A DNA stretch of 11,951 nucleotides, taken from Kiritimatiellales bacterium (lineage in GTDB: Bacteria; Verrucomicrobiota; Kiritimatiellia; Kiritimatiellales; Tichowtungiaceae). Both the position numbers and the translations under genes were made by a program. Under the pieces are notes generated by a model. The model saw nothing but the letters and a program-made list of their open reading frames with translations. It did not search any database and was not told the DNA's origin. Location of the stretch: assembly GCA_028692515.1 (NCBI GenBank), contig JAQUXG010000026.1:1-11951 (forward strand). The letters run 5' to 3'. Positions within the stretch are counted from its first letter, which is position 1, and every line of letters begins with the position of its first letter. This document shows positions 1 through 11,951 of this stretch, in pieces.

Positions 1-1
1 G

Positions 2-619
2 CTCAATGCAATGTCGGGGCCGCATCAGTTGGCGGTCAAGCTGCTGTACGGTTGCGGTCTGCGGATCTCAGAGTGCCTGCGTTTGCGGGTTCAGGATGTG
101 GACTTCGAGATGAAGTCGGTGACGGTGCGCAGCGGCAAGGGAGATAAGGATCGGGTGACGACGTTTCCGCCGAGTTTGCGCGAACCGCTGGAGACGCATT
201 TGAAAAAGGTAAAGGTGCTGCACGAAAAGGATCTGGCGGACGGGTTCGGTGCGGTTTATCTGCCCCATGCGTTGGAGAGAAAATATCCAAATGCCGCCAC
301 GGACTGGCGCTGGCAGTATGTTTTTCCAGCTCAAAGCCGATCCGTTGATCCGCGCGCAGGGGTCACCCGGCGACATCATGTTGATCCAAGCCCGGTGAAT
401 CAGGCAATCGCTAACGCGGTGCGGATTGCGGGGATTCAGAAGCGGGTGAGTGCGCATACCTTGCGCCATTCGTTTGCAACACACCTGTTGCAACGCGGAA
501 CCGATATCCGCACCATTCAAGCCTTACTGGGGCACAATGATGTGCAAACGACGATGATCTACACGCATGTGCTGCAACAGGGCGGAAACGGCGTGGTGAG
601 CCCGCTGGAGGATCTTTAA
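2..619 (+). CDS. intI: Integron integrase IntI, C-terminal part (5' end outside window)
   Basis: Tyrosine recombinase of the integron integrase type, which recombines attI and attC sites. The frame is open to the left edge, so the N-terminal domain lies outside the window. Numbering from the first Met in the window (base 11), the full catalytic set is present: R18 (GCGLRISE), K43, H149 and R152 ([12 protein letters not shown]), H175 (LLGHND) and the nucleophile Y184 (TMIYTHVL). The stretch at residues 87-106, ALERKYP...WRWQYVFPA, is the extra segment that separates IntI from XerC/D, and RAGVTRRHH follows as in IntI1. The C-terminus ends in the usual SPLEDL. No attI, attC or cassette is seen downstream, but attI normally lies at the 5' side of intI, which is outside the window. 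The visible part looks intact; whether the whole gene is intact cannot be judged. Confidence 0.9.
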
Positions 620-637
620 TTTTTTGAGGAAAGAGTG

Positions 638-730
638 ATGGGCCGCAAGGATGTGAAGACGACCGGGATCTATACGCATATGATGAACAAAGACCTCAAC
701 GCCGTTCAAAGCCCGCTCGATAGGCTCTAA
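638..730 (+). pseudogene. Relic of a second integrase C-terminus (30 codons)
   Basis: A 30-codon stretch from ATG 638 to TAA 728-730. It contains DVKTTGIYTHMMN and ends NAVQSPLDRL. From its second residue it aligns without gaps to the last 29 residues of the upstream integrase, with 15 identities including the IYTH box with the nucleophilic tyrosine and the terminal SPL. It lies in the same reading frame as the upstream gene, after its TAA and six sense codons. Its divergence, for example GRKD where the intact gene has GHND, suggests the tail of a different integrase rather than a fresh duplication. It is too short to be a recombinase. A GAGGA sits 7 bases before the ATG, so translation cannot be excluded, but a remnant is the simplest reading. 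Confidence 0.75.
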
Positions 731-731
731 C

Positions 732-750
732 TTTTCCAGTGTCTGGAAAA
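732..750. repeat. Palindromic repeat copy 1 (variant) / hairpin
   Basis: TTTTCCAGTGTCTGGAAAA, a perfect 8-bp stem with a 3-base loop. It shares the framework TTTTCCA-N5-TGGAAAA with the palindrome at 765-779 and differs only in the central five bases. It lies just after the integrase relic stop codon. Confidence 0.7.
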
Positions 751-754
751 CGAA

Positions 755-790
755 AAGGCCGGTTTTCCAAACATTGGAAAAACCGGCCTT
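755..790. terminator. Strong hairpin, shared or bidirectional terminator
   Basis: Left arm AAGGCCGG-TTTT-CCAA (755-770), loop ACA, right arm TTGG-AAAAA-CCGGCCTT (774-790). This gives 16 paired bases with one bulged A. Read on the minus strand, the stem is followed by TTCGTTTT, a usable U-tract, so it should end the leftward GH88-cupin-oxidoreductase operon 20 bases after its last stop codon. On the plus strand the following T-run is weaker, but the hairpin could still separate the integrase region from the operon. The tip of the hairpin is the dispersed palindrome at 765-779. Confidence 0.75.
765..779. repeat. Palindromic repeat copy 2 (TTCCAAACATTGGAA)
   Basis: Exact reference copy of the dispersed palindrome, forming the upper stem and loop of the terminator at 755-790. 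Other copies are at 732-750 (variant), 3699-3713 (exact), 4759-4771 (13-base exact core) and 11860-11874 (one mismatch). Confidence 0.85.
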
Positions 791-810
791 CGTTTGTGCG
801 TCAGGTGCGC

Positions 811-1989
811 TTATCCCAGTTTCGGGACATCGACCCACTTGCGTTCTTTCCAGCTCTGCATGCCGAGTTCGGCGAGCTGCACGCCTTTGGCGCCTTCCAT
901 GAGAGAGAATTTCCACTCCGTGCCGAGCACGACGTGTTTGATGAACATTTCCCACTGAATCTTGAAGGCGTTGTCGTAAACGATGTTGTTCGGAACATCT
1001 TCCCAGCCGCCGAGGAAATCGATGGTCTGCGGGACGTCCGGATTCCAGACCGGTTTCGGCGTGTTGGCCGCGCTCTGGGTTTTGACTTCGCGCAATCCGG
1101 CAACAGCGGAACCTTTAGTGCCGTCGACGTGGACGGTGAGCAGGTCGTCGCGGCGTACGCGGGTGCACCAGGAGCTGTTGAACTGAACCATGGTGCCGTC
1201 TTCGAGCAGGAACATGGCGTAGGCGGAGTCGTCGGCGGTACACTTGAAGGGCTTGCCGTCTTCGGCGCGGCGCTCGGGCAGGTCGATGCTGCCGTAGGCG
1301 ACGAGGCTTTTGACGGGGCCGAAGACGTTGTCGATGACATAACGCCAGTGACAGAACATATCGATCATCATGCCGCCGCCGTCTTCGGCGCGGTAGTTCC
1401 AGCTCGGGCGCTGGGCGGGCTGATCTTCATCCATGCCGGTGAAGACCCAGTAGCCGAAGTCGCCTTTGACGGAGAGAATCTTGCCGAAGAAGCCGAGTTC
1501 TTTGAGCATTTTCAGTTTACGGAAGCCGGGAAGCCAGAGCTTGTCCTGCACGACACCGTTTTTGAGTCCGGCATCATCGACGAGCCTGGCGAGGCGGACG
1601 GCTTCTTTGCTTTCGACGGCAGTCGGTTTTTCGCAGTAGATGGCTTTGCCTGCTTTGACCGCCTGTTCGATGAATCCTGCGCGTTGCAGCGTTCCGGAGG
1701 CGTCGAAGAAAATTTCATAGTCGCCGTATTTTCCATCGAGCGCGCCTTGCACGTCGGTGGTGTATTTATAGGCTTCGCCGCGGGCTTCGTTGCCGTATTT
1801 TTCGGCCAGTTCTTTGAGGGCGTGTTCGCGCCGTCCGGTCAGGATCGGGTCGGGCATAATGATGAGGTCGTTGCCGACTTTGATGCCGCCTTGTTTGATG
1901 ATTGCGGTGATGGAGCGCGCGAGATGCTGGTTGGTGCCCATGCGTCCCGTCACGCCGTTCATGATGATTCCGATTCTCTTGATTTCCAT
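811..1989 (-). CDS. Gfo/Idh/MocA-family NAD(P)-dependent oxidoreductase
   Basis: Predicted cytosolic sugar or cyclitol dehydrogenase of 392 residues. The N-terminal Rossmann fold has the nucleotide loop NGVTGRMG (11-18). The family signature YCEKPTA places E120-K121-P122 at the expected site. In the C-terminal domain GGGMMIDMFCHW (204-215) gives the usual D210 and H214 active-site pair. I chose ATG 1989 because AAAAGGA lies 7 bases upstream; a start 10 codons earlier is open but has no such site. It is the last gene of the leftward operon, 45 bases after the cupin. The family acts on many substrates, such as glucose, inositol, uronates and amino-sugars, so the substrate is unknown. The context suggests a uronic acid derivative. 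Length is normal for the family. Confidence 0.88.
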   Translation of the reverse strand: MEIKRIGIIMNGVTGRMGTNQHLARSITAIIKQGGIKVGNDLIIMPDPILTGRREHALKELAEKYGNEARGEAYKYTTDVQGALDGKYGDYEIFFDASGTLQRAGFIEQAVKAGKAIYCEKPTAVESKEAVRLARLVDDAGLKNGVVQDKLWLPGFRKLKMLKELGFFGKILSVKGDFGYWVFTGMDEDQPAQRPSWNYRAEDGGGMMIDMFCHWRYVIDNVFGPVKSLVAYGSIDLPERRAEDGKPFKCTADDSAYAMFLLEDGTMVQFNSSWCTRVRRDDLLTVHVDGTKGSAVAGLREVKTQSAANTPKPVWNPDVPQTIDFLGGWEDVPNNIVYDNAFKIQWEMFIKHVVLGTEWKFSLMEGAKGVQLAELGMQSWKERKWVDVPKLG

Positions 1990-2034
1990 ATTGATTCCTT
2001 TTTTTGCGGGCACGCACAAGGCATGCCCTTACTT

Positions 2035-2499
2035 TTAGATGATGACGGGTCCGCCTTCCGGCATGTCAATGCATTGCGGTTGTGCGCCTGCGGGCAGGGC
2101 GGGAACATCGACGCCGGCTTTCGGCAGCGTTCCGGCCAGTTCTTCGCGCCAGTGGGCGACATCGCCTGCCGGGCCGTAGCAATAGATAAAGTGCGCCGGC
2201 TCATCGCCGATGTTGGTCATCTGGTGAAAGACGCCCGGCGGAATCTGAACGATCTGTCCGGCGGTCATTTCGCGGCGTTCGTCGCCGAGACACATTTCGG
2301 TTTTCCCGGAGACGACAAAGTAGACCTCTTCCGAATCCTGATTGTGCCACGGAACCTGTCCGCCATTCGGGTCAAGGGTGACGTAGCCCATGCAGAAGTT
2401 TTCGCACTGCACCGGCGAAGCGCCGCCGACGAGATTCTGCGTCAACCGACGTGCGGGGTAAGTGCGGCCTTTGATTTCTTTCAGATCTCCAATGATCAT
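2035..2499 (-). CDS. Single-domain cupin, possible KdgF-like uronate-processing protein
   Basis: Protein of 154 residues with one cupin barrel. Motif 1 is PWHNQDSEEVYFVVSG, with likely metal ligands H52, Q54 (where many cupins have His) and E58. Motif 2 is IPPGVFHQMTN, with H92. The start at ATG 2499 has a good AAAGGAG 7 bases upstream. It is the middle gene of the operon, between GH88 and the Gfo/Idh enzyme. Cupins called KdgF open the ring of 4,5-unsaturated uronates released by such hydrolases, so that role fits. KdgF proteins are, however, usually near 110 residues, and this one has an extra C-terminal tail of about 40 residues ending GGPVII. It could also be a sugar isomerase or a binding cupin. 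The fold is sure, the reaction is inference. Confidence 0.82.
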   Translation of the reverse strand: MIIGDLKEIKGRTYPARRLTQNLVGGASPVQCENFCMGYVTLDPNGGQVPWHNQDSEEVYFVVSGKTEMCLGDERREMTAGQIVQIPPGVFHQMTNIGDEPAHFIYCYGPAGDVAHWREELAGTLPKAGVDVPALPAGAQPQCIDMPEGGPVII

Positions 2500-2521
2500 A
2501 TCTTTCTCCTTTCAGTCGAGT

Positions 2522-2569
2522 TGAAGGTCTTAAGGTCGCGGGTCTAAAGCCGGGGATCTTGGACCTTCA
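2522..2569 (-). other. Intercistronic inverted repeat between GH88 and cupin genes
   Basis: TGAAGGTC (2522-2529) and GACCTTCA (2562-2569) form a perfect 8-bp inverted repeat with a 32-base loop. It sits in the 83-base gap between the GH88 stop and the cupin start. The loop carries further AGGTC/GGGTC units at 2533-2537 and 2539-2543. It could be an mRNA stability or processing element. No U-tract follows on the transcribed strand, so it is not a good terminator. Confidence 0.35.
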
Positions 2570-2582
2570 GGCTTTTGACTTT

Positions 2583-3938
2583 TTATATAAAAAATTTGAG
2601 GTACGGCTGTTTGGTTGCGATGCGCTGAACGTAGAGGGCGGCTTCGCGGACGTGGTAGTCGCCCCACATGCTCGATTCGCCGCAGGGAATTTTGCGGCCC
2701 TTGGGGATGTAGTCCCAGCCGTTGGGCTGATGATAGACCGAGTGCAGCAGCAGACCCTGATGTTTCGGGGAGGTGCTGAGATAGCCTTCGCCGAGCAGGG
2801 TTTGCATGACGGTCAGTCCGGCCTGCATATATTTTTTACTCTTCAGATAATGGCCGAGGCGCATCAGGCCTTGCGCGGCGATTGCGGCGGCGGAGGAGTC
2901 GACGGGCTCGTAGCCGTTGAACGGATCGGCCGGTTTGCTCAGATAATCTTCGCCGAGTTTCCAGAGATTCGGTGCGCCGGTATCCCAGTAAGGGATGCCA
3001 TCGGCGGCACTGTTCGCAATGTAGAAATCGCAGGTGGCTTTGGCGGCTTTCAACAGAAGGCCTTCGACCGCTTCGCGTCCGCCGAGCGGTTTAAGCTGAG
3101 CGTCACTGACGGTTTTCAGAAATTCCAGCTGTTCGGTTGCGCCGAGCATGATCCAGGCGAGGCCGCGCGTCCAGGTGGTGAACGGTGAAAAGCCCTGCTG
3201 GGAATTCGGGCAGCGGAAGCGTCCGTCGTTCGTGTTGAAAATACTTTCGTGGGCGGTGCGTCCGCGCACGTCATAGGCGTCGCGACCTTCGCCGTAGAAG
3301 ACGGCGTATTTTGCGGTGGTTTGCGCATGCTGAATCAGTCGCGTGAGCAGGCTGACCTTTTCATCATTTTCGCCCATCAAGGATTGGCCGAGCTGATGCG
3401 CTGCGGCGAGCGAGCGCAGCGAGCGGATGGTGTCGGCGAACAGCGAGTGCGGGCCGTTAAAGGAATAGATGTAGCCGCCGCCATCGGGCAGGGCGGTCCA
3501 GCGGCGTGCCTGAACGGCGCCGGAGGCTTTGAGCGCGATTTCGTAAAAGTTGCGCTCCCATTCATTTTCAGGAATGCGGCCTTCGTTCATCAGGCGCAGC
3601 AGATTGCCGTAGGTGCTGATGTTGTTGAAGCCGTGGTCGTGAACACCGAAGTGGGTTACGTGCGGAGCCATGTTGGAGACGGTGTTCTTCCGCCCGGCTT
3701 CCAAACATTGGAAATCATCGGTGGCGTCGAACTGAAGAATCTCCGCGCCGTACTGAAAGCCCTGCGTCCATTCCGTCCAGCCGCGCGCGGTATATTTGCC
3801 TTTCACCGTGAATACCGGCGAGCCTTTCGCGACGTCGTAGTTCCGGTTCAGGTCATCGATCTTTTGTCCGGAAACAGCCCAGAAATTCTGAATGGAGTTT
3901 AGAAGATCCGCTGGCTTGATTGTACGGCTGATAATCAT
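2583..3938 (-). CDS. GH88-family unsaturated glucuronyl/uronyl hydrolase
   Basis: Enzyme of 451 residues that cleaves the terminal 4,5-unsaturated uronic acid from oligosaccharides made by polysaccharide lyases, by hydrating the double bond. Family marks in order: HFGVHDHGF, with D101 matching the first catalytic Asp; SLFADTIRSLRS, with D169 as likely second Asp; then TWTRGLAWIMLG, YWDTGAPN, PVDSSAAAIAAQGLM, and the C-terminal HQPNGWDYIP and SSMWGDYHVREAAL. The start at ATG 3938 is preceded by AAGGGG, 5 bases away; an upstream ATG adding 13 residues lacks one. No signal peptide is evident, so it likely acts in the cytosol after uptake. It heads the leftward operon. One palindromic repeat is read in frame as FQCLE (residues 76-80). 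GH105 is a related alternative, but the HDHGF and DSSAAAIAA context fits GH88 better. Confidence 0.9.
   Translation of the reverse strand: MIISRTIKPADLLNSIQNFWAVSGQKIDDLNRNYDVAKGSPVFTVKGKYTARGWTEWTQGFQYGAEILQFDATDDFQCLEAGRKNTVSNMAPHVTHFGVHDHGFNNISTYGNLLRLMNEGRIPENEWERNFYEIALKASGAVQARRWTALPDGGGYIYSFNGPHSLFADTIRSLRSLAAAHQLGQSLMGENDEKVSLLTRLIQHAQTTAKYAVFYGEGRDAYDVRGRTAHESIFNTNDGRFRCPNSQQGFSPFTTWTRGLAWIMLGATEQLEFLKTVSDAQLKPLGGREAVEGLLLKAAKATCDFYIANSAADGIPYWDTGAPNLWKLGEDYLSKPADPFNGYEPVDSSAAAIAAQGLMRLGHYLKSKKYMQAGLTVMQTLLGEGYLSTSPKHQGLLLHSVYHQPNGWDYIPKGRKIPCGESSMWGDYHVREAALYVQRIATKQPYLKFFI
3699..3713. repeat. Palindromic repeat copy 3, inside GH88 gene
   Basis: Exact TTCCAAACATTGGAA within the GH88 coding sequence. 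The gene is on the minus strand, so it is read TTC CAA TGT TTG GAA, giving F-Q-C-L-E at residues 76-80, about 20 residues before the catalytic HDHGF motif. Confidence 0.85.
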
Positions 3939-4064
3939 GGGTTCCCCTTGTAATTTTTTGGCATAGTGCAGGAACAAAAGTTCTATATCAATAAATTATT
4001 GCTGAAAATATATTGCCAAAGAACTATATGCGGCGATATCGTACGATCTTTAAAGGAGAGCTCA
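3939..4064. promoter_or_regulatory. Divergent promoter region between GH88 operon and HTH-cupin regulator
   Basis: AT-rich 126-base gap between divergent genes, so it must hold both promoters. Seen: a perfect 10-bp palindrome ATCGTACGAT (4038-4047) just before the regulator's ribosome site; two near-identical 12-mers AAAGTTCTATAT (3977-3988) and AAAGAACTATAT (4018-4029), 41 bases apart (about four helix turns); and a possible plus-strand promoter TTGCCA (4013-4018), 18-base spacer, TATCGT (4037-4042), whose -10 overlaps the palindrome. An autoregulated operator for the HTH-cupin protein is a reasonable inference. The promoter boxes are weak matches. Confidence 0.5.
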
Positions 4065-4613
4065 GTGACCGGAAACTTCGGAGAGAATACGGAAATGTAC
4101 AACTTTTCCGTTTTGCGCGACCTGCGCAAACGGGACGGGTTGACGATTGCGGACCTTTCGACGCGAACCGGCATTTCGCCAGCGGTGATTTCCAAGCTGG
4201 AACGCAATCAGGCGGTGGCCAATCTCGGCACGCTGTTCCGGCTGGCGCGCGCCTTCGGCATTACGGCGGCGGAACTGCTTACGCTGATTGAGTCCCGTAC
4301 GGCGCAGTGCAAAACGGAGACCAGCCGGATTGCGGAGGATTTTCATTTCCGTGAGATCGAGTTTGCCAACTCCAACTGCTATTACGCAGAAGCGATCAAA
4401 GGAGCAAAGCGCTCTAATCCGGATGCGCATCGCGACGATTATGAAACCTGCTGGGTGCTCGAAGGATCACTCAAAGTGGTGCTTCCATATGAAACGCACA
4501 TTTTGAAGGCGGGCGATTGTCTGCAGTTCGACGCGCTCTTCGAGCATACCTACGAAGTGCTCGAAGACTGCCGGATCATCATTCAGCACATTCATAAACA
4601 GAAACGGTTTTAA
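4065..4613 (+). CDS. XRE-type HTH regulator with C-terminal cupin sensor domain
   Basis: Transcription factor of 182 residues. The N-terminal Cro/CI-type helix-turn-helix (about 16-72) shows TIADLSTRTGISPAVISKLE followed by NLGTLFRLARAFGI. A linker leads to a cupin domain (about 115-178) with H122 and E127 before CWVLEGSLKVVLP, then KAGDCLQFDALFEHTYEV with H161. Proteins of this layout sense a small molecule through the cupin. I chose GTG 4065 because AAAGGAG lies 6 bases upstream; ATG 4095 is possible but has a poor site. The open frame further left to 3966 runs through the promoter region and is not used. It faces the GH88 operon and leads an SDR gene 15 bases downstream, so it probably controls both from the shared gap. 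The ligand is unknown; a uronate derivative is a guess. Confidence 0.87.
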   Translation: MTGNFGENTEMYNFSVLRDLRKRDGLTIADLSTRTGISPAVISKLERNQAVANLGTLFRLARAFGITAAELLTLIESRTAQCKTETSRIAEDFHFREIEFANSNCYYAEAIKGAKRSNPDAHRDDYETCWVLEGSLKVVLPYETHILKAGDCLQFDALFEHTYEVLEDCRIIIQHIHKQKRF

Positions 4614-4628
4614 GCGGAGGATATACAG

Positions 4629-5402
4629 ATGAAAAAAGTGGCATTGGTAACCGGCGGCGGGCGCGGAATCGGCCTGGGAATCTGCGAGAAACTGGCGGCA
4701 GACGGATTTAATCTGGTGCTGAGCGGACGTAGCGATGCATCCAAAGTCGCGGACTCCATCCAAACATTGGAAAAACTCGGAGCGGAAGTCCTCTACTGCT
4801 CCGGCGATGTTTCTTCTGCTGACGACCGTGCGGCGATGCTCGCGGCGATTAAAGAAAAATTCGGCCGGCTCGACGTCCTCGTTAATAACGCCGGCGTCGG
4901 TGCCAAAGTGCGGGGCGATCTGCTTGACGCAGCGCAGGAAAATTTCGAATGGATTTTGAAGATCAACCTGCTTGGCCCGTTCGCACTGACTCAGGCGGTT
5001 TCCAAATGGATGATCAAGCAGAAGCAGGCCGACAGCGCGTTCGGCGGCTGCATCATCAATATCGGGTCAATCTCTGCGACCGTCGTTTCGCCGAGTCGCG
5101 GCGACTACTGCATTTCCAAGGCGGCCGTCGGCATGATGACTTCTCTGTTCGCCGCGCGCCTCGGTGAGCACGCGATTCCGGTTTATGAAATCCGTCCCGG
5201 CATCATCAAAACCGATATGACCGCCGGCGTGACCGATAAATACGACAACCTGATCAGCAACACCGAACTGCTGGTTGAAAAACGCTGGGGCTTCCCGGAA
5301 GACATCGGCAGGCTGGCCGCCGCCATGGCGCGCGGCGATATACCGTATGCCACCGGGCAGGCCATCTATGTCGACGGCGGTTTAACCCTGACGCGTTTGT
5401 AA
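4629..5402 (+). CDS. Short-chain dehydrogenase/reductase (FabG/KduD-like SDR)
   Basis: Classical SDR of 257 residues. The cofactor loop is TGGGRGIG (8-15), followed by NNAG (86-89), N113, and the catalytic S147, Y160, K164 in GSIS...DYCISKAA. The C-terminus has the usual YATGQAIYVDGG. GCGGAGG lies 8 bases before the ATG. The gene follows the HTH-cupin regulator by 15 bases and is surely co-transcribed. Automatic annotation would probably call it 3-oxoacyl-ACP reductase. In this context, a reductase of a deoxy-keto-uronate (the step before KDG, as done by KduD or DEH reductases) is more likely, but that is inference. One palindromic repeat is read in frame as IQTLE (44-48), in the region after the second beta strand that often varies in SDRs. 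Confidence 0.9.
   Translation: MKKVALVTGGGRGIGLGICEKLAADGFNLVLSGRSDASKVADSIQTLEKLGAEVLYCSGDVSSADDRAAMLAAIKEKFGRLDVLVNNAGVGAKVRGDLLDAAQENFEWILKINLLGPFALTQAVSKWMIKQKQADSAFGGCIINIGSISATVVSPSRGDYCISKAAVGMMTSLFAARLGEHAIPVYEIRPGIIKTDMTAGVTDKYDNLISNTELLVEKRWGFPEDIGRLAAAMARGDIPYATGQAIYVDGGLTLTRL
4759..4771. repeat. Palindromic repeat copy 4, inside SDR gene
   Basis: TCCAAACATTGGA, an exact 13-base core of the dispersed palindrome. The outer pair is lost on the left, where ATCC replaces TTCC. Read ATC CAA ACA TTG GAA, giving I-Q-T-L-E. Confidence 0.8.
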
Positions 5403-5449
5403 AGGCGCTTGGAATTTTTCTGCGCGGATCGGCGTTGAGGTTTGACGAC

Positions 5450-5467
5450 CCGCTGTTGCGGTTTTTT
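5450..5467 (+). terminator. Weak candidate terminator after SDR gene
   Basis: CCGC-TGTT-GCGG followed by six T residues, 47 bases after the SDR stop codon. The stem is only 4 bp, so efficiency is doubtful, but the position between two transcription units is right. Confidence 0.45.
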
Positions 5468-5494
5468 CTCTTTATATATTTTATTTTCTGCCGC

Positions 5495-5545
5495 TGAAAC
5501 TTATGGGTTGCATTTTTATATCATATGATAAATAAGGTGGTTTCA
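5495..5545 (+). promoter_or_regulatory. Operator candidates upstream of GH130 gene
   Basis: TATCATATGATA (5519-5530) is a perfect 12-bp palindrome 38 bases before the GH130 start. It lies inside a wider inverted pair, TGAAAC (5495-5500) and GTTTCA (5540-5545), which is not centred on it. The surrounding gap (5403-5568) is AT-rich. The palindrome is a plausible binding site for the LacI-type regulator of the same cluster. No clear -35/-10 pair was recognised. Confidence 0.4.
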
Positions 5546-5568
5546 CTTTAACGGAGGGGATTTGTCTT

Positions 5569-6570
5569 ATGAGTAAAATTGTGGGCGGAGTGTCTTTGGC
5601 GAAGATTCCCTGGCAGGAGCGACCAGCGGATTCAAGTGCGATCCTGTGGCGTTATGATGCCAACCCGATTATCGGCTGGAACCCGATTCCGGATGGCGCG
5701 CGGGCGTTTAACAGTGCGGTTGTTCCTTTCGGCGGCGGGTTTGTCGGCGTGTTCCGAATCGATCATCACAATGACATGCCGCAATTGCATTTCGGAACCA
5801 GTGAAAACGCGATTGATTGGAATATCCAGAACGATGCCATTCGTTTTGTGAGCGAATCCGGCGAGCCGATGCCGCGCTCCGCGTACTATTACGACCCGCG
5901 CGTCGTGAAAATTGAAGACACCTATTATGTGACGTGGTGCAATGAGTTTATCGGGACGATGTCGCCGACGATCGGAATTGCCAAAACGACAGATTTCAAA
6001 AGCTTCGTTCAGTTGGAAAATGCGTTCCTTCCGTTTAATCGCAACGGGGTGCTGTTCCCGCGGAAAATCGGCGGCGAATTTGTGATGCTGAACCGCCCGA
6101 GCGATAATGGCCACACTCCGTTTGGTGATGTCTATCTGAGTCGCAGTCCGGACATGACGTTTTGGGGAAAGCACCGTTTGGTGATGAAGGCCGGGCAGGG
6201 CGGCTGGTGGGAAGCTACCAAGATCGGTCCCGGCCCGGTGCCGATTGAAACAGATGAAGGATGGCTGGTGATCTATCATGCCGTGATCAATAACTGCAAC
6301 GGGTTCGTTTACAGTTTCGGTTCGGTCATTCTGGATCTGGATGATCCCTCGAAGGTGCTGGCACGTTCCAGCCGCTATTTGTTGTCCCCGGAAAAACCGT
6401 ATGAGACGACCGGCTTTGTGCCCAACGTCGCCTTCCCGTGCGCGACGCTCTGTGACGCGGATACCGGACGGCTGGCCGTTTACTACGGCGCGGCGGATAC
6501 CTATACGGCATTGGCCTTCGGTAATGTCTACGAAATTATGGAGTGGACGCGAGCCAACAGCAGTATCTGA
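5569..6570 (+). CDS. GH130 family beta-mannoside phosphorylase
   Basis: Cytosolic enzyme of 333 residues with the five-bladed propeller pattern of GH130, which splits beta-mannosides with phosphate to give mannose-1-phosphate. Motifs: NPIIGWNP (32-39), FNSAVV with S49, FRID (62-65), YYYDPRV with D109 as probable acid, FNRNGVLFP with R158-N159, WWEATKIG with K218, GWLVIYHAV with H237, and YYGAADT (305-311). The S/R/N/K/H set matches, from memory, the phosphate-binding residues of characterised phosphorylases, which argues against a plain hydrolase. K and H are 19 residues apart, as in those enzymes. GGAGGGG lies 9 bases upstream of the ATG. The next gene is a sugar symporter, so the pair probably imports and phosphorolyses a disaccharide. 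Exact acceptor sugar unknown. Confidence 0.87.
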   Translation: MSKIVGGVSLAKIPWQERPADSSAILWRYDANPIIGWNPIPDGARAFNSAVVPFGGGFVGVFRIDHHNDMPQLHFGTSENAIDWNIQNDAIRFVSESGEPMPRSAYYYDPRVVKIEDTYYVTWCNEFIGTMSPTIGIAKTTDFKSFVQLENAFLPFNRNGVLFPRKIGGEFVMLNRPSDNGHTPFGDVYLSRSPDMTFWGKHRLVMKAGQGGWWEATKIGPGPVPIETDEGWLVIYHAVINNCNGFVYSFGSVILDLDDPSKVLARSSRYLLSPEKPYETTGFVPNVAFPCATLCDADTGRLAVYYGAADTYTALAFGNVYEIMEWTRANSSI

Positions 6571-6648
6571 TTTTAACGATGAATTCTCAGTATACTCCTT
6601 GCCGCCGGTGTTTTTTGCGGAGGGAAAACGAGAGGATAAGGCGTAAGC

Positions 6649-8085
6649 ATGACACATAAAAAATACACGGTTCCTTTTTATCGAAAACTTTCGTGGGGAA
6701 TGGGCGGGTTCGGTGAAAATCTGGCCAACAATGCGGTGCTCTACTTCGCATTCCCGATCTACCAGATTGCGCTTGGAGTCCCCCCGATCTGGATTACGGC
6801 GGGCATGCTGATTTCCCGCATTCTGGATGCATTCACCGATCCGCTCATGGGAAACATTACCGATAACACCCATTCGCGCTGGGGGAGACGACGCCCGTGG
6901 ATTCTGATCGGCGCGGTGATGATGTCCATTTTCTTTGCGTTGATGTGGATGATGCCGGCGGAAGCGTCCAAAGAGGTGCTGGGAACATATCTGGGCATCA
7001 TGTGCGTGTTGTTTTACGTCGGGTTTACCATTTTCGTCATTCCGTTTTCGGCTCTTGGGATCGAGATGGTCGAGGATTATGACGAACGCACGCGGTTGCA
7101 GATCTTTCGTATGGTGCCCGCGTATCTCGGCGGGTTTGTGATGTCGTTTTTCTACAAATGGGCTCTGAATCCGCACTTTAAACATCCCACACTGCCGACG
7201 GAAGTGAACGGCGCACGAACGGTTGGAATCGGCGCGGCGATCGTGATTTTGATCTGCTGTGTTTTGCCCGCCTTGTTCACCAAGGAACGCTTTGCCGAGA
7301 AAACCAGAACCCAGGAGCGTATCAAAATCGGCACGGCGATTAAGCTGACCCTGACGGATAAGCCATATCTGATGGTGGTCTCCACTGCGTTTATGGTTTT
7401 TATCGCATTGTTTTTTGTGATGCCGCTGATGACCTACATCGGCATATTTTATATTTTTTCGAATATGTCTTCGCTCGAAGAGGCAAAACGTGCGGCGGGT
7501 GATATCGGTCCGATCACTGCCGGGTTCTGCATTGTGTTTCAGATTATTGCGACGTTCCTGATCGGCGTTTGGGCCCGGCGTGTGGACAAGAAAACGTTGC
7601 TGATCGGCGGTCTGGCCATTGCGGCGGTGGGGTATCTTTCTTCCTGGTTTTTCTTCACCCCCGCCCATCCTTATTGGCAGATCATTCCGATGGTGGTCAT
7701 TCAGGTGGGGCTGGCGGCCTGCTGGGTGGTGAACGGATCGTTTGTGGCCGATATCTGCGACTTTGATGAACTCAAAACCGGACAGCGCCGGGAGGGCATG
7801 TACAGCGCGGTGTTCGGGTTCATTTATAAATGTGCCATCGGAATTGTGGCGCTGTTAAGCGGTCTGTTCCTGACCGCCGCCGGAATCAAGGGCGGTGTTC
7901 TGGAGCATCTCGACAGCCTTTCCTCCGGATTGCTTATGGTTTTGCGTTTGGCGTATGCGCTCTTTCCGGCGGTCTGTCTGCTGATCGGGATTCTGATCAT
8001 GAGAAAGTATCCCTTAACCAAAAAGAAGGTCGAAGAGATTCAGCAGCAGTTGAAAGATCGCCGCGGAGATGTTGTGTCGACATAA
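6649..8085 (+). CDS. GPH-family (MelB-like) sugar:cation symporter
   Basis: Inner-membrane transporter of 478 residues, normal for the glycoside-pentoside-hexuronide:cation symporter family. The diagnostic loop after the second helix is present: D60-AFTDPLMGNITDN, then RWGRRRPW (77-84), including the Asp residues used for cation coupling. Hydrophobic segments recur through the chain, consistent with 12 helices, for example near 85-98, 110-130, 240-265, 285-305 and 325-350. The C-terminus is charged and cytosolic. The ribosome site is weak (AAGG about 9 bases before ATG). It lies 78 bases after the GH130 gene. A TATACT at 6591-6596 resembles a -10 box but has no good -35 partner, so co-transcription with GH130 is likely. 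Substrate is likely the GH130 disaccharide or a hexuronide. Confidence 0.9.
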   Translation: MTHKKYTVPFYRKLSWGMGGFGENLANNAVLYFAFPIYQIALGVPPIWITAGMLISRILDAFTDPLMGNITDNTHSRWGRRRPWILIGAVMMSIFFALMWMMPAEASKEVLGTYLGIMCVLFYVGFTIFVIPFSALGIEMVEDYDERTRLQIFRMVPAYLGGFVMSFFYKWALNPHFKHPTLPTEVNGARTVGIGAAIVILICCVLPALFTKERFAEKTRTQERIKIGTAIKLTLTDKPYLMVVSTAFMVFIALFFVMPLMTYIGIFYIFSNMSSLEEAKRAAGDIGPITAGFCIVFQIIATFLIGVWARRVDKKTLLIGGLAIAAVGYLSSWFFFTPAHPYWQIIPMVVIQVGLAACWVVNGSFVADICDFDELKTGQRREGMYSAVFGFIYKCAIGIVALLSGLFLTAAGIKGGVLEHLDSLSSGLLMVLRLAYALFPAVCLLIGILIMRKYPLTKKKVEEIQQQLKDRRGDVVST

Positions 8086-8120
8086 GAAAGCCGTTGATGC
8101 AGAGGCGATAAAAAGCGACC

Positions 8121-9146
8121 ATGCCGCAGATGGAGCCGACAAGAAAAGATCCGAGTCAAAATGCGATTGCCAAGCGGGCGGGGGTTGCCCGGACGACGGT
8201 TTCTCTCGTGCTGCGCGGCGGAGAGGGGTTGCGGCCAGAAACCGTGCGGCGCGTACAAAAGGCGGCCGAGGAGCTTGGCTACCGACCCAATATGCTGGTG
8301 CAGGGGATTCGTACCGGTAAGTCCCGTATGGTCGGGGTGATGATTCCGCCGTATGACTCGCATTGGTCGCAAATACTCTACGGCATTCATGATGAGCTTT
8401 CGGAAAACGACTATGCTCCACTACTTCTCTGGTCGGCACATCGTGACGAAGAGATGGATGAAGCCCGCGAATTAAAGCAGGTTCACCGGTTACTGGATCA
8501 TCGCATTGATGGAGTCATTCTCTGGCCGTATTTCGCGCAAATGTATGCCGGGCATATCCAGGAATTTTCTTCGCGAAACCTGCCGGTGGTCACCATCGAC
8601 TGCCGTATCGACTGCGGGATCAAAGCGAATGCGGTATTGAGCGATGACCGGGCCGGCGCGCAGGCCGTTGCGCAGTATCTGGTTCGACGGGGACATAAAA
8701 AAATCATCCATTTCTGTGGTCCTGATTCTGAAGAATGGGCACGAATGCGGCGGGAAAGCTTTTCTGCGGAAGTCGACTGCCTGACCGTTGAGGTTCCTCT
8801 TAAGCCGCCGCGCATCCGGATGATCCGCGAGGCGCTGGAGGCCAATCCGGAAATCACGGCCGTCTTTGCATCAACGGATCATATTGCTGAAGATGTCTAC
8901 CAAGTCGCCGCAGAAATGAAGCTGCGGATTCCGGAAGATCTCTCGGTGGCGGGATACAGTGATCTGGAGTTCGCGCGGTACCTGTCGCCGCCGCTCACGA
9001 CAGTTCATACACATCCTTATGCGATGGGGCGTCGCGCCGCCGCGATACTTCTCGGGCGAATGATCGATGTTGAAACCCCGTCGTCGGGAGAGGTTGAAAG
9101 TCAGCCCGTTGAGCTCATTGAGCGTCAGTCCACTCGCCGTCTGTGA
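8121..9146 (+). CDS. LacI-family transcriptional regulator
   Basis: Regulator of 341 residues. The N-terminal LacI helix-turn-helix is AIAKRAGVARTTVSLVLRG (15-33), followed by LRPETVRRVQKAAEELGYRPN and a hinge region (55-68). The rest is a periplasmic-binding-protein-like sensor: MVGVMIPPYDSHW, DGVILWPY, PVVTIDCRID, HKKIIHFCGP, TAVFASTDHIAEDV and the C-terminal PEDLSVAGYSDLEFARYLSPPLTTVHT, all at family positions. The start is uncertain: ATG 8121 and ATG 8130 are both possible and neither has a strong ribosome site. It lies 35 bases after the symporter gene, so it is probably in the same transcript and controls the GH130/symporter genes. Length is typical. Confidence 0.9.
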   Translation: MPQMEPTRKDPSQNAIAKRAGVARTTVSLVLRGGEGLRPETVRRVQKAAEELGYRPNMLVQGIRTGKSRMVGVMIPPYDSHWSQILYGIHDELSENDYAPLLLWSAHRDEEMDEARELKQVHRLLDHRIDGVILWPYFAQMYAGHIQEFSSRNLPVVTIDCRIDCGIKANAVLSDDRAGAQAVAQYLVRRGHKKIIHFCGPDSEEWARMRRESFSAEVDCLTVEVPLKPPRIRMIREALEANPEITAVFASTDHIAEDVYQVAAEMKLRIPEDLSVAGYSDLEFARYLSPPLTTVHTHPYAMGRRAAAILLGRMIDVETPSSGEVESQPVELIERQSTRRL

Positions 9147-9160
9147 GTGGCAAAGGAATC

Positions 9161-9170
9161 AACCGCGGTT
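9161..9170. promoter_or_regulatory. Candidate LacI-type operator AACCGCGGTT
   Basis: A perfect 10-bp palindrome with a CG-rich centre, 14 bases after the LacI-type gene and 73 before the XylR-like gene. LacI-family operators commonly have this symmetry. No second copy was found in the window, so this is weak. Confidence 0.3.
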
Positions 9171-9242
9171 TGGTTAAGCCCCATTTATCGTGCGTATTTC
9201 ACCGCATTCATATAGCGTATTGCGAAAACGGAGCGCAGAGAG

Positions 9243-10358
9243 ATGGCGAAGCAGATTGCACTTTTACTGGATTACAACGACAACTACGCCAAGACGGTGG
9301 CCGATGGCGTGGCGAAGTATTCTATGCAGAACAGCTGGCGGTTTATTACGCACCGCGGCGTTCCGTCCGTCACGTTCGAACAGCTCCAGACGCAACCGGC
9401 CGACGGTGTGATCGGTTATCTATCTCCCAACGTGGTGCAGTGGCTGGATGAACGCAAAATTCCCGCAGTCAATGTGAAGACGGATTTTCCGTCGCTGCCC
9501 GCCTGCTCTGTGCTGACGGACAATCTCGAAATCGGACGGCGCGCCGCCGACTATCTGGCCGGAAAAGGATTCCGGCGCTTTGCTTATACGACCGGGCCGA
9601 TCGAAGGCATCTGCGGCGAGCTGAAATTTGAAGGGTTCCGCGACCGGTTGGCCGCGCTGGGCTTTGAGTGCCTGCGAAAAAAGGTCCGTGAAATTCCGGA
9701 CGGCTTCCGCGAGGACAGCCGGCAGTCGCTGGCCGTTCTGGCGGTCGAGGATTTTGTCGGCCGTATGGTGATTGAAACCTGCGAAGACAACGGCTTGCGG
9801 GTCCCCGAGGATGTCGCGGTGCTCGGCGTGAATAACAGTCCGTTTGTCTGTTCGATGGTGCGCCCGCAAATGTCGAGTATCGAACTCGGCGCCGAGCGGA
9901 TCGGTTATTGCGCGGCTCAGCTGCTCGATCAGCTGATGAAAGGTGTAAAGCCGCCGAAAGAGCCGATCGTGATGGCTCCCGAAGAAATCGTGGAACGGCA
10001 TTCCACCGAGCTGATCGAGATGGAAGACCGCCTGATTCCTGATGCACTGCGATTTATCAAAGGAAACATTCACAAGCCGATTCAGGTGGAAGAGGTCGCT
10101 CGCGCGGTTTTTTGCGGACGGCGCACGCTGGAAAAACGCTTTCGGGAGGCGTTAGGCCGCTCGCCGCACGAAGAAATCCGCCGCGCCCGCATTCGCCGCG
10201 CCTGCGAGCTGCTGCGCGAAACCGATACGATCATCGAGGTGCTGGCCGGACTGTGCGGCTATACGACCCGCGACCGCTTTAATGTCGCCTTTCGGAAAGA
10301 AAAGGGAATGACCCCGTCGCAATACCGCCAGCAATACCGCTTCGCAAAACGCTCGTAA
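9243..10358 (+). CDS. XylR-type regulator: LacI-like sensor fused to AraC DNA-binding domain
   Basis: Regulator of 371 residues with the layout of E. coli XylR. The sensor (about 3-255) has IALLLDYNDNYAKTVADGV, ADGVIGYL, VPEDVAVLGVNNSPFVCSM and MSSIELGAERIGYCAAQLL. The AraC domain (about 263-368) has two helix-turn-helices, IQVEEVARAVFCGRRTLEKRF and TIIEVLAGLCGYTTRDRFNVAFRK, then GMTPSQYR. In the sensor, the stretch between FREDS (155-159) and LAVLAVED (163-170) is about 11 residues shorter than in XylR and lacks the W-L-x-x-LP-x-P helix end, perhaps a small in-frame deletion. ATG 9243 has only AGAGAG nearby. It precedes the KDG kinase and aldolase, so those genes, rather than xylose genes, are probable targets. 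The ligand is unknown. Confidence 0.88.
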   Translation: MAKQIALLLDYNDNYAKTVADGVAKYSMQNSWRFITHRGVPSVTFEQLQTQPADGVIGYLSPNVVQWLDERKIPAVNVKTDFPSLPACSVLTDNLEIGRRAADYLAGKGFRRFAYTTGPIEGICGELKFEGFRDRLAALGFECLRKKVREIPDGFREDSRQSLAVLAVEDFVGRMVIETCEDNGLRVPEDVAVLGVNNSPFVCSMVRPQMSSIELGAERIGYCAAQLLDQLMKGVKPPKEPIVMAPEEIVERHSTELIEMEDRLIPDALRFIKGNIHKPIQVEEVARAVFCGRRTLEKRFREALGRSPHEEIRRARIRRACELLRETDTIIEVLAGLCGYTTRDRFNVAFRKEKGMTPSQYRQQYRFAKRS

Positions 10359-10380
10359 CTTATCGCAAAATGCGCGTAGC
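10342..10380 (+). promoter_or_regulatory. 18-bp direct repeat with 21-bp period, likely AraC/XylR-type operator
   Basis: TCGCAAAACGCTCGTAAC (10342-10359) and TCGCAAAATGCGCGTAGC (10363-10380) match at 15 of 18 positions and start exactly 21 bases apart, two helix turns. AraC-family proteins with two helix-turn-helices bind such tandem half-sites upstream of the promoter they activate. The first copy overlaps the last codons of the XylR-like gene, and the second ends 48 bases before the kinase ATG. A weak -10-like TACTCT lies at 10400-10405, which would place the second copy over the -35 region. Confidence 0.6.
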
Positions 10381-10388
10381 GATTTTTT
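10362..10388 (+). terminator. Weak candidate terminator after XylR-like gene
   Basis: ATCGC (10362-10366) pairs with GCGAT (10379-10383), followed by a run of T to 10388. The stem is short with a 12-base loop. It overlaps the direct repeat at 10342-10380, so the pairing may be a by-product of the operator sequence. Confidence 0.3.
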
Positions 10389-10428
10389 CTGAACAGGCGT
10401 ACTCTTCGGGCATTTATAGGAGGTCGTG

Positions 10429-11529
10429 ATGAGTTCTTTTGCAGTAAAACCGGCGGCGGAATGCCGCTACGATATTCTTTCTCTCGGCGAAGTCATGCTT
10501 CGTCTCGATCCCGGCGAAGGGCGTATCCGCACTTCGCGGCAGTTTCAGGCTTGGGAAGGCGGCGGCGAATATAACGTGGCGCGCGGACTGCGCCGATGCT
10601 TTGGACAGCGCGCCGCCGTGGTGACTGCTTTTGCAAAAAACGAAGTCGGTTTGCTGATGGAAGACTTCATCCTGCAGGGCGGCGTGGATACCTCGCTCAT
10701 CAAATGGGCGGACTATGACGGCATCGGTCGTACGGTTCGTAACGGACTTAACTTCACCGAGCGAGGCTTCGGCATTCGCGGCGCAGTCGGTTGTTCCGAT
10801 CGCGGCAATACTGCCGCCTCGCAGCTCAAAGTCGGCGACATCGACTGGGAGTATATTTTTGGAACACTTGGCGTGCGCTGGCTGCACACCGGCGGAATTT
10901 TTGCCGCGCTCAGCGAAACCACCGGCCCGCTGGTGATCGAAGCCGCCAAGACCGCCAAAAAATACGGCACGATGGTTTCCTACGACCTCAACTACCGTCC
11001 GTCGCTCTGGAAGGGTTTTGGCGGACTGAAGAAATGTCAGGAAATCAACCGCGAGATCGCCAAATATGTCGACGTGATGATTGGCAACGAAGAGGACTTC
11101 ACCGCCTGTCTCGGCTTCGAAATCGAAGGCGCGGATGAAAACCTGACGGAACTTGAAATCGAGTCGTTCCAGAAGATGATCGCCAAAGCAGTCAAAGAAT
11201 TCCCGAACTTCAAAGCGACCGCCACCACAATGCGCGGCGTGAAATCGGCTACCGTTAACGACTGGGGCGCGATGGCCTGGTGCAACGGAAAATTCTACAC
11301 CTCCACGCATCGTCCGAATCTTGAAATCATGGACCGCGTCGGCGGCGGCGACAGCTTTGCCTCCGGCTTCATCTACGGTCTGATGGAACTCGGCGACCCG
11401 CAGTTGGCGGTCGAATACGGCGCGGCGCACGGCGCACTCGCCATGACTACGCCGGGTGACACCACGATGGCCTCTCTGTCTGAAGTAAAAAAACTGGTCG
11501 GCGGCGGCGGAGCTCGCGTAGACCGGTAA
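10429..11529 (+). CDS. kdgK: PfkB-family kinase, probable 2-keto-3-deoxygluconate kinase
   Basis: Sugar kinase of 366 residues, predicted to phosphorylate 2-keto-3-deoxygluconate to KDPG. The start region ILSLGEVMLRLDPGEGRI and the first PfkB motif GGGEYNVARGL (44-54) are typical. DLNYRPSLW (186-194) and GNEEDF (219-224) are characteristic of KDG kinases. The second PfkB motif is DRVGGGDSFASGF (302-314), with D308 as catalytic base. ATG 10429 has AGGAGG five bases upstream; the adjoining GTG 10426 is too close to it. It is about 50 residues longer than many KdgK proteins, with extra sequence near 112-145 and 230-250. KDPG aldolase follows by 42 bases, which strongly supports the substrate. 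The direct repeat upstream suggests control by the XylR-like neighbour. Confidence 0.88.
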   Translation: MSSFAVKPAAECRYDILSLGEVMLRLDPGEGRIRTSRQFQAWEGGGEYNVARGLRRCFGQRAAVVTAFAKNEVGLLMEDFILQGGVDTSLIKWADYDGIGRTVRNGLNFTERGFGIRGAVGCSDRGNTAASQLKVGDIDWEYIFGTLGVRWLHTGGIFAALSETTGPLVIEAAKTAKKYGTMVSYDLNYRPSLWKGFGGLKKCQEINREIAKYVDVMIGNEEDFTACLGFEIEGADENLTELEIESFQKMIAKAVKEFPNFKATATTMRGVKSATVNDWGAMAWCNGKFYTSTHRPNLEIMDRVGGGDSFASGFIYGLMELGDPQLAVEYGAAHGALAMTTPGDTTMASLSEVKKLVGGGGARVDR

Positions 11530-11530
11530 G

Positions 11531-11549
11531 GGAAGGCTTCATGTCTTCC
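11531..11549 (+). other. Small intercistronic hairpin between kinase and aldolase genes
   Basis: GGAAG (11531-11535) pairs with CTTCC (11545-11549) around a 9-base loop, followed by a run of A residues. It starts right after the kinase stop codon and 23 bases before the aldolase ATG. It is not a terminator on this strand. Confidence 0.25.
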
Positions 11550-11571
11550 AAAAAAAATAAGGAAACGAATT

Positions 11572-11951
11572 ATGCTGAACGAACTGCTGAAACGTCCGGT
11601 GATTCCGGTCATCGTAATCGATAATGCCAACGACGCCGAGCCGCTGGCCGAAGCGTTGCTCAAGGGCGGCATGGATGTGATCGAAGTCACCTGCCGCACC
11701 GCCGCCGCGCCCGAAGCGCTGGCGCGCATCAAAAAGTCATTTCCTGAAATGATGGTTGGCGCGGGTACCGTTGTAACGCTCAATCAGGCCAAAATGTGCA
11801 TCGATACCGGCGTCAGCTTCGGTCTGGCTCCGGGACTCAATCCCGACATAGTGCAATTTTTCCAAACATCGGAAACGCTGTTTATTCCCGGCGTGATGAC
11901 GCCGTCGGAAATTGAGCAGGGGCTGTCGCTCGGATGCAAAATGCTCAAGTT
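11572..11951 (+). CDS. eda: KDPG/KHG aldolase (3' end outside window)
   Basis: First 126 codons of 2-keto-3-deoxy-6-phosphogluconate aldolase, which splits KDPG to pyruvate and glyceraldehyde-3-phosphate. Active-site residues are in place: E38 and R42 in DVIEVTCRT, T66 in VGAGTV, P87 in GLAPGLN, and K126, the last full codon, as the Schiff-base lysine. Each is offset by exactly 7 from E. coli Eda (E45, R49, T73, P94, K133), so there is no gain or loss across this stretch. AAGGAAA sits 7 bases before the ATG. It follows the KDG kinase and completes the Entner-Doudoroff-like end of uronate breakdown. A palindromic repeat variant is read in frame as FQTSE (97-101), replacing residues without changing length. 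Confidence 0.93.
   Translation, partial: MLNELLKRPVIPVIVIDNANDAEPLAEALLKGGMDVIEVTCRTAAAPEALARIKKSFPEMMVGAGTVVTLNQAKMCIDTGVSFGLAPGLNPDIVQFFQTSETLFIPGVMTPSEIEQGLSLGCKMLK
11860..11874. repeat. Palindromic repeat copy 5, inside KDPG aldolase gene (one mismatch)
   Basis: TTCCAAACATCGGAA, one base different from the exact copies (T to C). Read TTC CAA ACA TCG GAA, giving F-Q-T-S-E, in the surface stretch between PGL and FIPG of the aldolase. Confidence 0.75.

Follow-up and report, generated by a model that had tools for sequence, protein, structure and literature searches.

Why does the same short palindrome stand in a terminator-like hairpin and, in frame, inside three unrelated genes of a single contig? 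The question is raised by 11,951 nucleotides of DNA from a Kiritimatiellales bacterium (NCBI GenBank assembly GCA_028692515.1, contig JAQUXG010000026.1, positions 1 to 11,951; hereafter the window). The word that we counted is TTCCA-N5-TGGAA (15 bases with mirror-symmetric arms), and its recurrence, helical phasing and conservation at the DNA level make it probable, in our view, that it is a dispersed double-stranded DNA binding site of a putative dimeric, cooperatively binding protein of the nucleoid-type or global kind in the class Kiritimatiellia. The window is contig C112 of its own genome (G000; 1,814,136 bases in 288 contigs), and all five copies were found at the positions given in an earlier, sequence-only reading (the original prediction). 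The features concerned are as follows.

732-750, no strand: palindromic site TTTTCCAGTGTCTGGAAAA with perfect arms, first of a phased pair (variant form TTCCAGTGTCTGGAA at 734-748)
754-791, minus strand: terminator-like hairpin AAGGCCGG...CCGGCCTT, situated where the 811-2019 (-) gene has its 3' end; the tip of the hairpin carries the second palindrome
763-781, no strand: palindromic site TTTTCCAAACATTGGAAAA, second of the pair (exact 15-mer at 765-779)
3699-3713, no strand: exact, perfect site within a gene (2583-3977, minus strand), in codon phase 0 and reading F-Q-C-L-E
4758-4772, no strand: one-mismatch copy ATCCAAACATTGGAA in the SDR gene 4629-5402, codon phase 0
11860-11874, no strand: one-mismatch copy TTCCAAACATCGGAA in the KDPG/KHG aldolase gene starting at 11572, codon phase 0

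Frequency, phasing and anatomy of the palindrome

The word is far more frequent than chance allows, as had been claimed. The window has three copies, where 200 dinucleotide shuffles average 0.01; the whole genome has 754, and none of the word reversed without complementing. In a 96-kb sample of this genome we counted 52 copies, vs. an average of 0.07 when the half-sites of the palindrome are shuffled. The codon-preserving comparison proposed with the original prediction, made with 20 synonymous-codon shuffles that leave the proteins intact, gave 22 coding copies vs. 2.45 on average and 5 at most. Samples of three further genomes, again with 20 shuffles each, yielded 87 coding copies vs. 9.80, 44 vs. 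3.40, and 16 vs. 2.05. A genome-wide count near the shuffled expectation had been named beforehand as the adverse outcome; the counts came out the opposite way.

Neighbouring sites are mostly spaced by whole helical turns, with usual distances of 22, 31/32, 41/42, 52/53 and 62/63 bp; the pair in the window (734-748 to 765) is 31 bp, or about three turns, apart. Among nearest neighbours 16 to 130 bp apart, with at least one perfect site per pair, phasing at 10.5 bp was strong (n=137, R=0.847) and persisted when pairs at 30-33 bp were removed (n=44, R=0.692, p=7e-10) and when each distinct distance was counted once (n=24, R=0.583, p=3e-4); the full set of pairs, which are not independent, gave R=0.825 (n=189). 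The best of nine periods tried between 9.5 and 11.5 bp was 10.4-10.5, the helical repeat of B-DNA, which places neighbours on one face of the helix. The spacers within arrays are mutually dissimilar by eye. The fraction of sites with a neighbour within 70 bp ranges from 28/30 in genome G012 through 26/52 in G000 and 45/115 in G081 to 1/14 in G035. In several places a contig start or an N gap is found only tens of bases away from a site or array (contigs C91, C108, C112, C267 and C324 of G165; L027 at about 760; L024 at about 8340), as if the arrays were hard to assemble or varied among strains.

Nine genomes, sampled over 1.18 Mb, supplied the 350 perfect sites from which the anatomy of the word was derived. 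Symmetrised base counts, together with counts over N5, give the consensus TTTTCCAR-N-S-N-YTGGAAAA, in which the centre base is C or G in 93% of the sites; apart from neighbouring sites, the shared sequence ends at about 19 bp. In 250 one-mismatch copies, the fifth arm base is the one altered in 100 (A>G in 73) and the second C in 17, a profile such as a tolerant protein contact would be expected to leave. Some longer intergenic repeats include the palindrome, e.g., L021 17209-17255, which matches many contigs of its own genome. At L021 17290-17327 an apparent palindrome is split by a small GC hairpin (TTTTCCAATG-gcgcattttgcgcc-acaag-TGTTTGGAA), and 17292-17327 matches contig C62 of G032 at 92%.

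High counts of the word are confined to part of one class. A survey of the phylum covered 145 genomes, 47 in Kiritimatiellia and 98 in other classes, and none of the 98 had more than 22 copies. In the class survey, 47 of 116 Kiritimatiellia genomes carry 39-3,209 copies and are called motif-rich here (at least 39 copies, a cut chosen once the counts, with their gap between 27 and 39, were known). The highest counts are 3,209 (G203, 6.7 Mb), 2,237 (G222), 1,808 (G012) and 1,146 (G035), and density reaches about 0.5 copies per kb. The distribution is patchy even within one genus (g2), where G222, G035 and G127 (the last with 167 copies) stand against G050 and G087 with 20 each. When named genomes were scanned for three in-phase sites, at least 117 stretches came up; by title, the 80 listed comprise 32 from Kiritimatiellae (under this or a variant name), 20 from Lentisphaerae, 10 from Verrucomicrobia, 4 from Spartobacteria, 1 from the PVC group and 13 given as "uncultured bacterium" only.

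Other repeated palindromes were encountered in the same comparisons. Searching 15-60 kb each of G124, G139, G050, G087, G007, G053 and G110 (4-61 copies of the word) revealed no other palindrome above the level of 5-8-copy words. Genome G061, of another class, has 55 copies of AAGGT-N5-ACCTT, e.g., at C1:53945-53959, many of them near contig starts; in the places listed these are mostly the single sequence AAGGTCAGCGACCTT, so that this excess of the reversed word was rejected as an analogue and represents a different repeat. Stretches L042, L043 and L080-L099 of G081 contain about 29 copies of CCACG-N6-CGTGG and similar numbers of GC-rich symmetric words, either a second repeated palindrome or a CRISPR-like repeat. 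Site counts in 22 stretches of G081, set against GC skew, gave no origin/terminus pattern by eye.

Conservation in genes and arrays in phages

Genes, called with a simple dicodon caller, contain 191 of the 350 perfect sites (0.18 per kb). The intergenic sites are distributed over convergent (29 sites, 1.78 per kb), divergent (32, 1.10) and tandem (82, 1.08) gaps, with 16 more at stretch ends, and the genic share varies between genomes from 2/49 (G012) to 44/54 (G035). By reading-frame arithmetic the three coding copies of the window do share one codon phase, as originally noted. This constancy does not extend to the nine genomes, where phases 0, 1 and 2 account for 85, 66 and 39 of 190 coding sites; the commonest is phase 0 (FQxLE), and the least used is phase 2, where a Trp is required. 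Position along the gene showed no clear preference among 142 sites. Genes bearing sites include pheT and guaA (by Pfam) and, presumably, carA, clpX, rnc and prmC, recognised from their sequences only.

Orthologous genes allow the conservation of the word to be separated from that of the residues it encodes. We compared 20 coding sites with up to 13 genus relatives (95 site-by-genome pairs), the queries L090 and L086 being chosen as the G081 stretches with most coding sites; a flank identity of 0.6 or more was required of every pair, here and for control 15-mers, and the one-mismatch coding copies of the window fall outside this set. Identity to orthologues is 0.902 in the arms, 0.737 in the flanks and 0.682 in N5, and 48 of the 95 pairs have a perfect site at the orthologous place too, where 6.3 are expected. 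At third positions of codons for the same residue, arms are identical in 223/258 cases and flanks in 1124/1984 (Fisher p=1.5e-22, nominal since the pairs are related). A codon-matched comparison, limited to alignments of at least 300 bp and to amino-acid-identical codons, gave 247/282 identical third positions vs. 163.6 expected from the same codons elsewhere (0.81-0.95 by a bootstrap over 21 sites, the safer measure), and the rare CCA codon is kept in 18/30 cases within sites vs. 15/143 elsewhere. This third-position excess means that the DNA word is conserved and not the residues alone. Residues conserved with unrelated codons, the second adverse outcome named in advance, were thus not the pattern found: codons are kept more than the residues call for.

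Where the orthologue is not perfect, residue identity at the site is 175/252, against 1011/1337 in the flanks, as if gain or loss of the word shifted protein residues. The 3699-3713 site of the window, for which there is a single usable orthologue, provides an example: the place in G081 is ungapped and non-perfect, with TGCCAACCATTTGAA (F-K-W-L-A) in place of F-Q-C-L-E. The aldolase copy at 11860-11874 is the same in G145 and differs in G081, G148 and G152; its change is of the most frequent one-mismatch type. Site L021 12403 owes its conservation in part to its surroundings, which are themselves well conserved throughout the genus.

The longest arrays, counted with at most one mismatch, have nine sites (L266), eight (L206, L149 and L083) and seven (L267 and four others), some of these loci overlapping. 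Three of them lie beside a terminase gene, an association that emerged from clustering of neighbouring proteins: the prophage-like L083 in the closed genome G081 and the viral contigs L267 and L266, with 8 sites (2 perfect), 9 (6) and 11 (4), respectively, under looser counting. In L267 and L083 the array precedes a small open reading frame of unassigned function and then the large terminase; a PHROGs scan, made on L267 only, identified terminase, portal and head protease. When the three phage arrays are aligned, the TTCC...GGA blocks are kept while the spacers drift. A terminase scan found three contigs, those of L267 and L266 and a relative, L439, and the array is present in three of the four related phages. 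A phased-pair scan of viral contigs gave 12 stretches in 11 contigs, in which, other than in L266 and L267, the clusters consist of 2-4 sites and may be host flanks. Among 601 proteins neighbouring arrays of at least three sites, no regulator was apparent by eye in the 25 largest clusters. Beside the phage arrays (L083, at about 700-708 kb of G081; L267; L266) we also observed conserved GTTTCA / TGAAAC repeats, GTTTCAGAATGTTTCA, with TTGAAACGGTTTGAAACA in L267, which we take to recall parS-like half-sites or a phage operator.

A candidate binding site and its rivals

The arms are strictly two-fold around a free centre, neighbours are helically phased, the word is conserved as DNA and its changes lack an RNA-type asymmetry; together these features point to a dimeric reader of double-stranded DNA that touches its neighbours on one face, and the number and spread of the sites suggest a nucleoid-type or global role over a regulon. 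One host protein would bind the word, with dimers two, three, four or more turns apart in mutual contact on the same DNA face; single genic sites and intergenic arrays would serve chromosome structure or broad transcription control, and some phages may exploit the same protein via arrays placed before packaging and structural genes. Of the meanings originally offered for the repeat, the protein-binding motif is the one retained, and the spreading element is given up along with constant codon phase. A more far-reaching version, which we regard as tentative and would sooner doubt than accept, is a sequence-specific chromatin code in many Kiritimatiellia: a putative nucleoid protein would read a 19-bp palindrome that recurs roughly every 2-4 kb where genomes are richest in it, fixed within housekeeping genes by selection on the DNA and forming three-turn filaments between genes, and the arrays before the packaging genes of temperate phages of these hosts, some of the longest arrays of all, would be read by the same protein.

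Several observations weigh against a binding site of this kind. As many as 69 of the 116 class genomes have at most 27 copies; the few close pairs of G035 are mostly out of phase, and with hardly any in-phase neighbours in that genome phasing cannot be needed everywhere; the phage of L439 has one perfect site and no array; and no binder was found among the AbrB, ParB and Lrp families. AbrB-type sites have the form TGGNA, and an AbrB/MazE binder was rejected as PF04014 went unmatched at E 0.001 in G065, G127, G130, G047, G159 and the closed genome G081, which has 951 copies of the word. A ParB paralogue (Noc/KorB-type) was likewise rejected, a single ParB being present in motif-rich G000, G032, G081, G035, G012 and G065; elsewhere there are up to 4 ParB copies in motif-rich genomes (G166) and up to 5 in motif-poor ones (G107). 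The proportion of perfect copies is a further difficulty. Five of seven genomes have more perfect than one-mismatch copies, even though a single mismatch can take 30 forms (52:10 in G000, 49:22 in G012, 49:21 in G065, 12:9 in G032 and 54:46 in G035, with no excess in G081, 115:115, or G029, 8:19). PMC1626085 describes such an excess for uptake signal sequences and DNA uptake sequences (USS/DUS) and contrasts it with regulator sites.

That excess is an argument for a serious rival, the DNA-uptake-type word, in which competent cells prefer word-bearing DNA and recombination keeps the word perfect by molecular drive; we give it a small chance. The likeness to the USS/DUS of Neisseriaceae and Pasteurellaceae is real: hundreds to thousands of copies, perfect ones often outnumbering near copies, and copies in housekeeping genes. 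The Kiritimatiellia word differs in being mirror-symmetric, phased and present in phage arrays, and neither mirror symmetry nor helically phased arrays are known from uptake sequences. The ComEC family is found in 114 of 116 class genomes and is equally common in motif-poor ones, so it carries little weight either way; G118, with 418 copies, has no ComEC match. That phages bear some of the longest arrays also speaks against uptake, and phasing and phage arrays together make a cytoplasmic binder preferable to either an uptake- or a repair-driven word.

The repair-driven alternative, in which DNA methylation and biased mismatch repair create the palindrome and maintain it in the manner of the highly iterated palindrome HIP1, counts as a serious rival too but appears unlikely. 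HIP1, as described in PMC4390886, is a high-frequency palindrome of cyanobacteria, rare in some relatives, linked to methyltransferases and of unsettled role. HIP1 and alternate HIPs share with the present word a very high copy number of an exact palindrome, its patchiness among relatives and, here, coding copies far above codon-preserving chance; the Kiritimatiellia word differs in its class, in being bipartite with a free N5 and in its helically phased arrays. The sequence CCANNNNNTGG inside the word is a known type of restriction-methylation target (PflMI). The inner core CCAN5TGG alone is not enriched, because in the sample of the 350 sites it occurs 286 times with neither a TT nor an AA flank, 129 times with a single one and 350 times with the two together, for a chance expectation of about 318 altogether, and methylation predicts neither 10.5-bp phasing nor the C/G centre.

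Operators of the class's usually single-copy Lrp/AsnC protein are a further rival. Lrp sites are 15 bp long and odd-centred with three-turn spacing, as are the phased, dimer-type sites here. At least one family member is present in all 47 motif-rich genomes, and all 18 genomes without the family have at most 15 copies; these absences are concentrated in few families, so that the association is not independent evidence, and 51 genomes have the protein yet are not motif-rich. The same kind of protein, presumably AlaR/YugG-like, was found at 46 of 50 loci (the other 4 gave a different or partial protein), its recognition helix varies among motif-rich genomes, and no residue tracks the motif. The copies are also far more numerous and stricter than operators of Lrp/AsnC or other global regulators. 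The case for Lrp as the binder is accordingly weak, and we judge it slightly less probable than a HIP1-like origin.

An RNA hairpin or transcription terminator element is very unlikely. In its favour, a terminator-like hairpin encloses the copy at 765-779, the RNA fold of 726-800 is strong on both strands (z of -6.2 and -5.0), and sites are denser between genes, most of all convergent ones. A simple terminator scan, by comparison, returned one site like 754-791 (-) vs. 0.6 in shuffles. More generally, over half of the perfect sites are inside called genes, divergent gaps also hold sites, the inner N bases pair in only 31%, and helical phasing is a property of DNA; coding-sense A>G changes that keep or break a wobble pair are equally frequent (25:28), a symmetry on which the RNA hairpin was rejected as a general function.

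A spreading mobile element of the REP/REPIN (repetitive extragenic palindrome) or Rickettsia type, for which one could cite high copy number, the longer intergenic repeats noted above and a frequency of gaps inside sites about twice that of controls (8/95 pairs vs. 4.4% of 1650 control 15-mers), is the least credible explanation and was rejected for genic copies by the orthologue alignments, since 87 of 95 pairs run ungapped through the site, the listed gaps are of 1-4 bases apart from one of 32 bases, unlike copies inserted as units, array spacers look unrelated and, neighbouring sites aside, conservation ends with the palindrome. The alignments bear out across orthologues the early observation that residues were replaced, not added, and contradict the suggested Rickettsia-like insertion: Rickettsia palindromic elements lie inside genes, as does the present word (in frame in the window), but the word is 15-19 bp long, involves no insertion and takes all three codon phases. 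REP/REPIN are extragenic, in contrast to the 191 of 350 perfect sites in called genes, although in G012 the genic copies are only two of 49.

The reading of the palindrome as a protein-binding site bears on a wider problem, for what dispersed palindromes like HIP1 do is still debated on correlative grounds. Helical phasing is a strong clue to a protein that reads the word as DNA, and orthologues that keep the word at synonymous sites turn this into a testable question; chromosome architecture may constrain housekeeping protein sequence (FQxLE) in a class known mostly from metagenomes. Among the open-licence papers listed in our literature searches, none was on this word. Dispersed high-copy palindromes and phased binding arrays are kinds already known; their combination, the lineage, the DNA-level conservation in genes and the phage arrays appear to be new.

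Other features of the window

The protein of the 2583-3977 (-) gene, originally labelled GH88, had no Pfam match at E 0.001. At the start of the window, positions 2-619 encode a tyrosine recombinase (Pfam Phage_integrase) that looks integron-integrase-like by eye. Positions 636-730 are the apparent tail of a second recombinase copy, of which 636-686 matches contig C171 of G151 at 90%.

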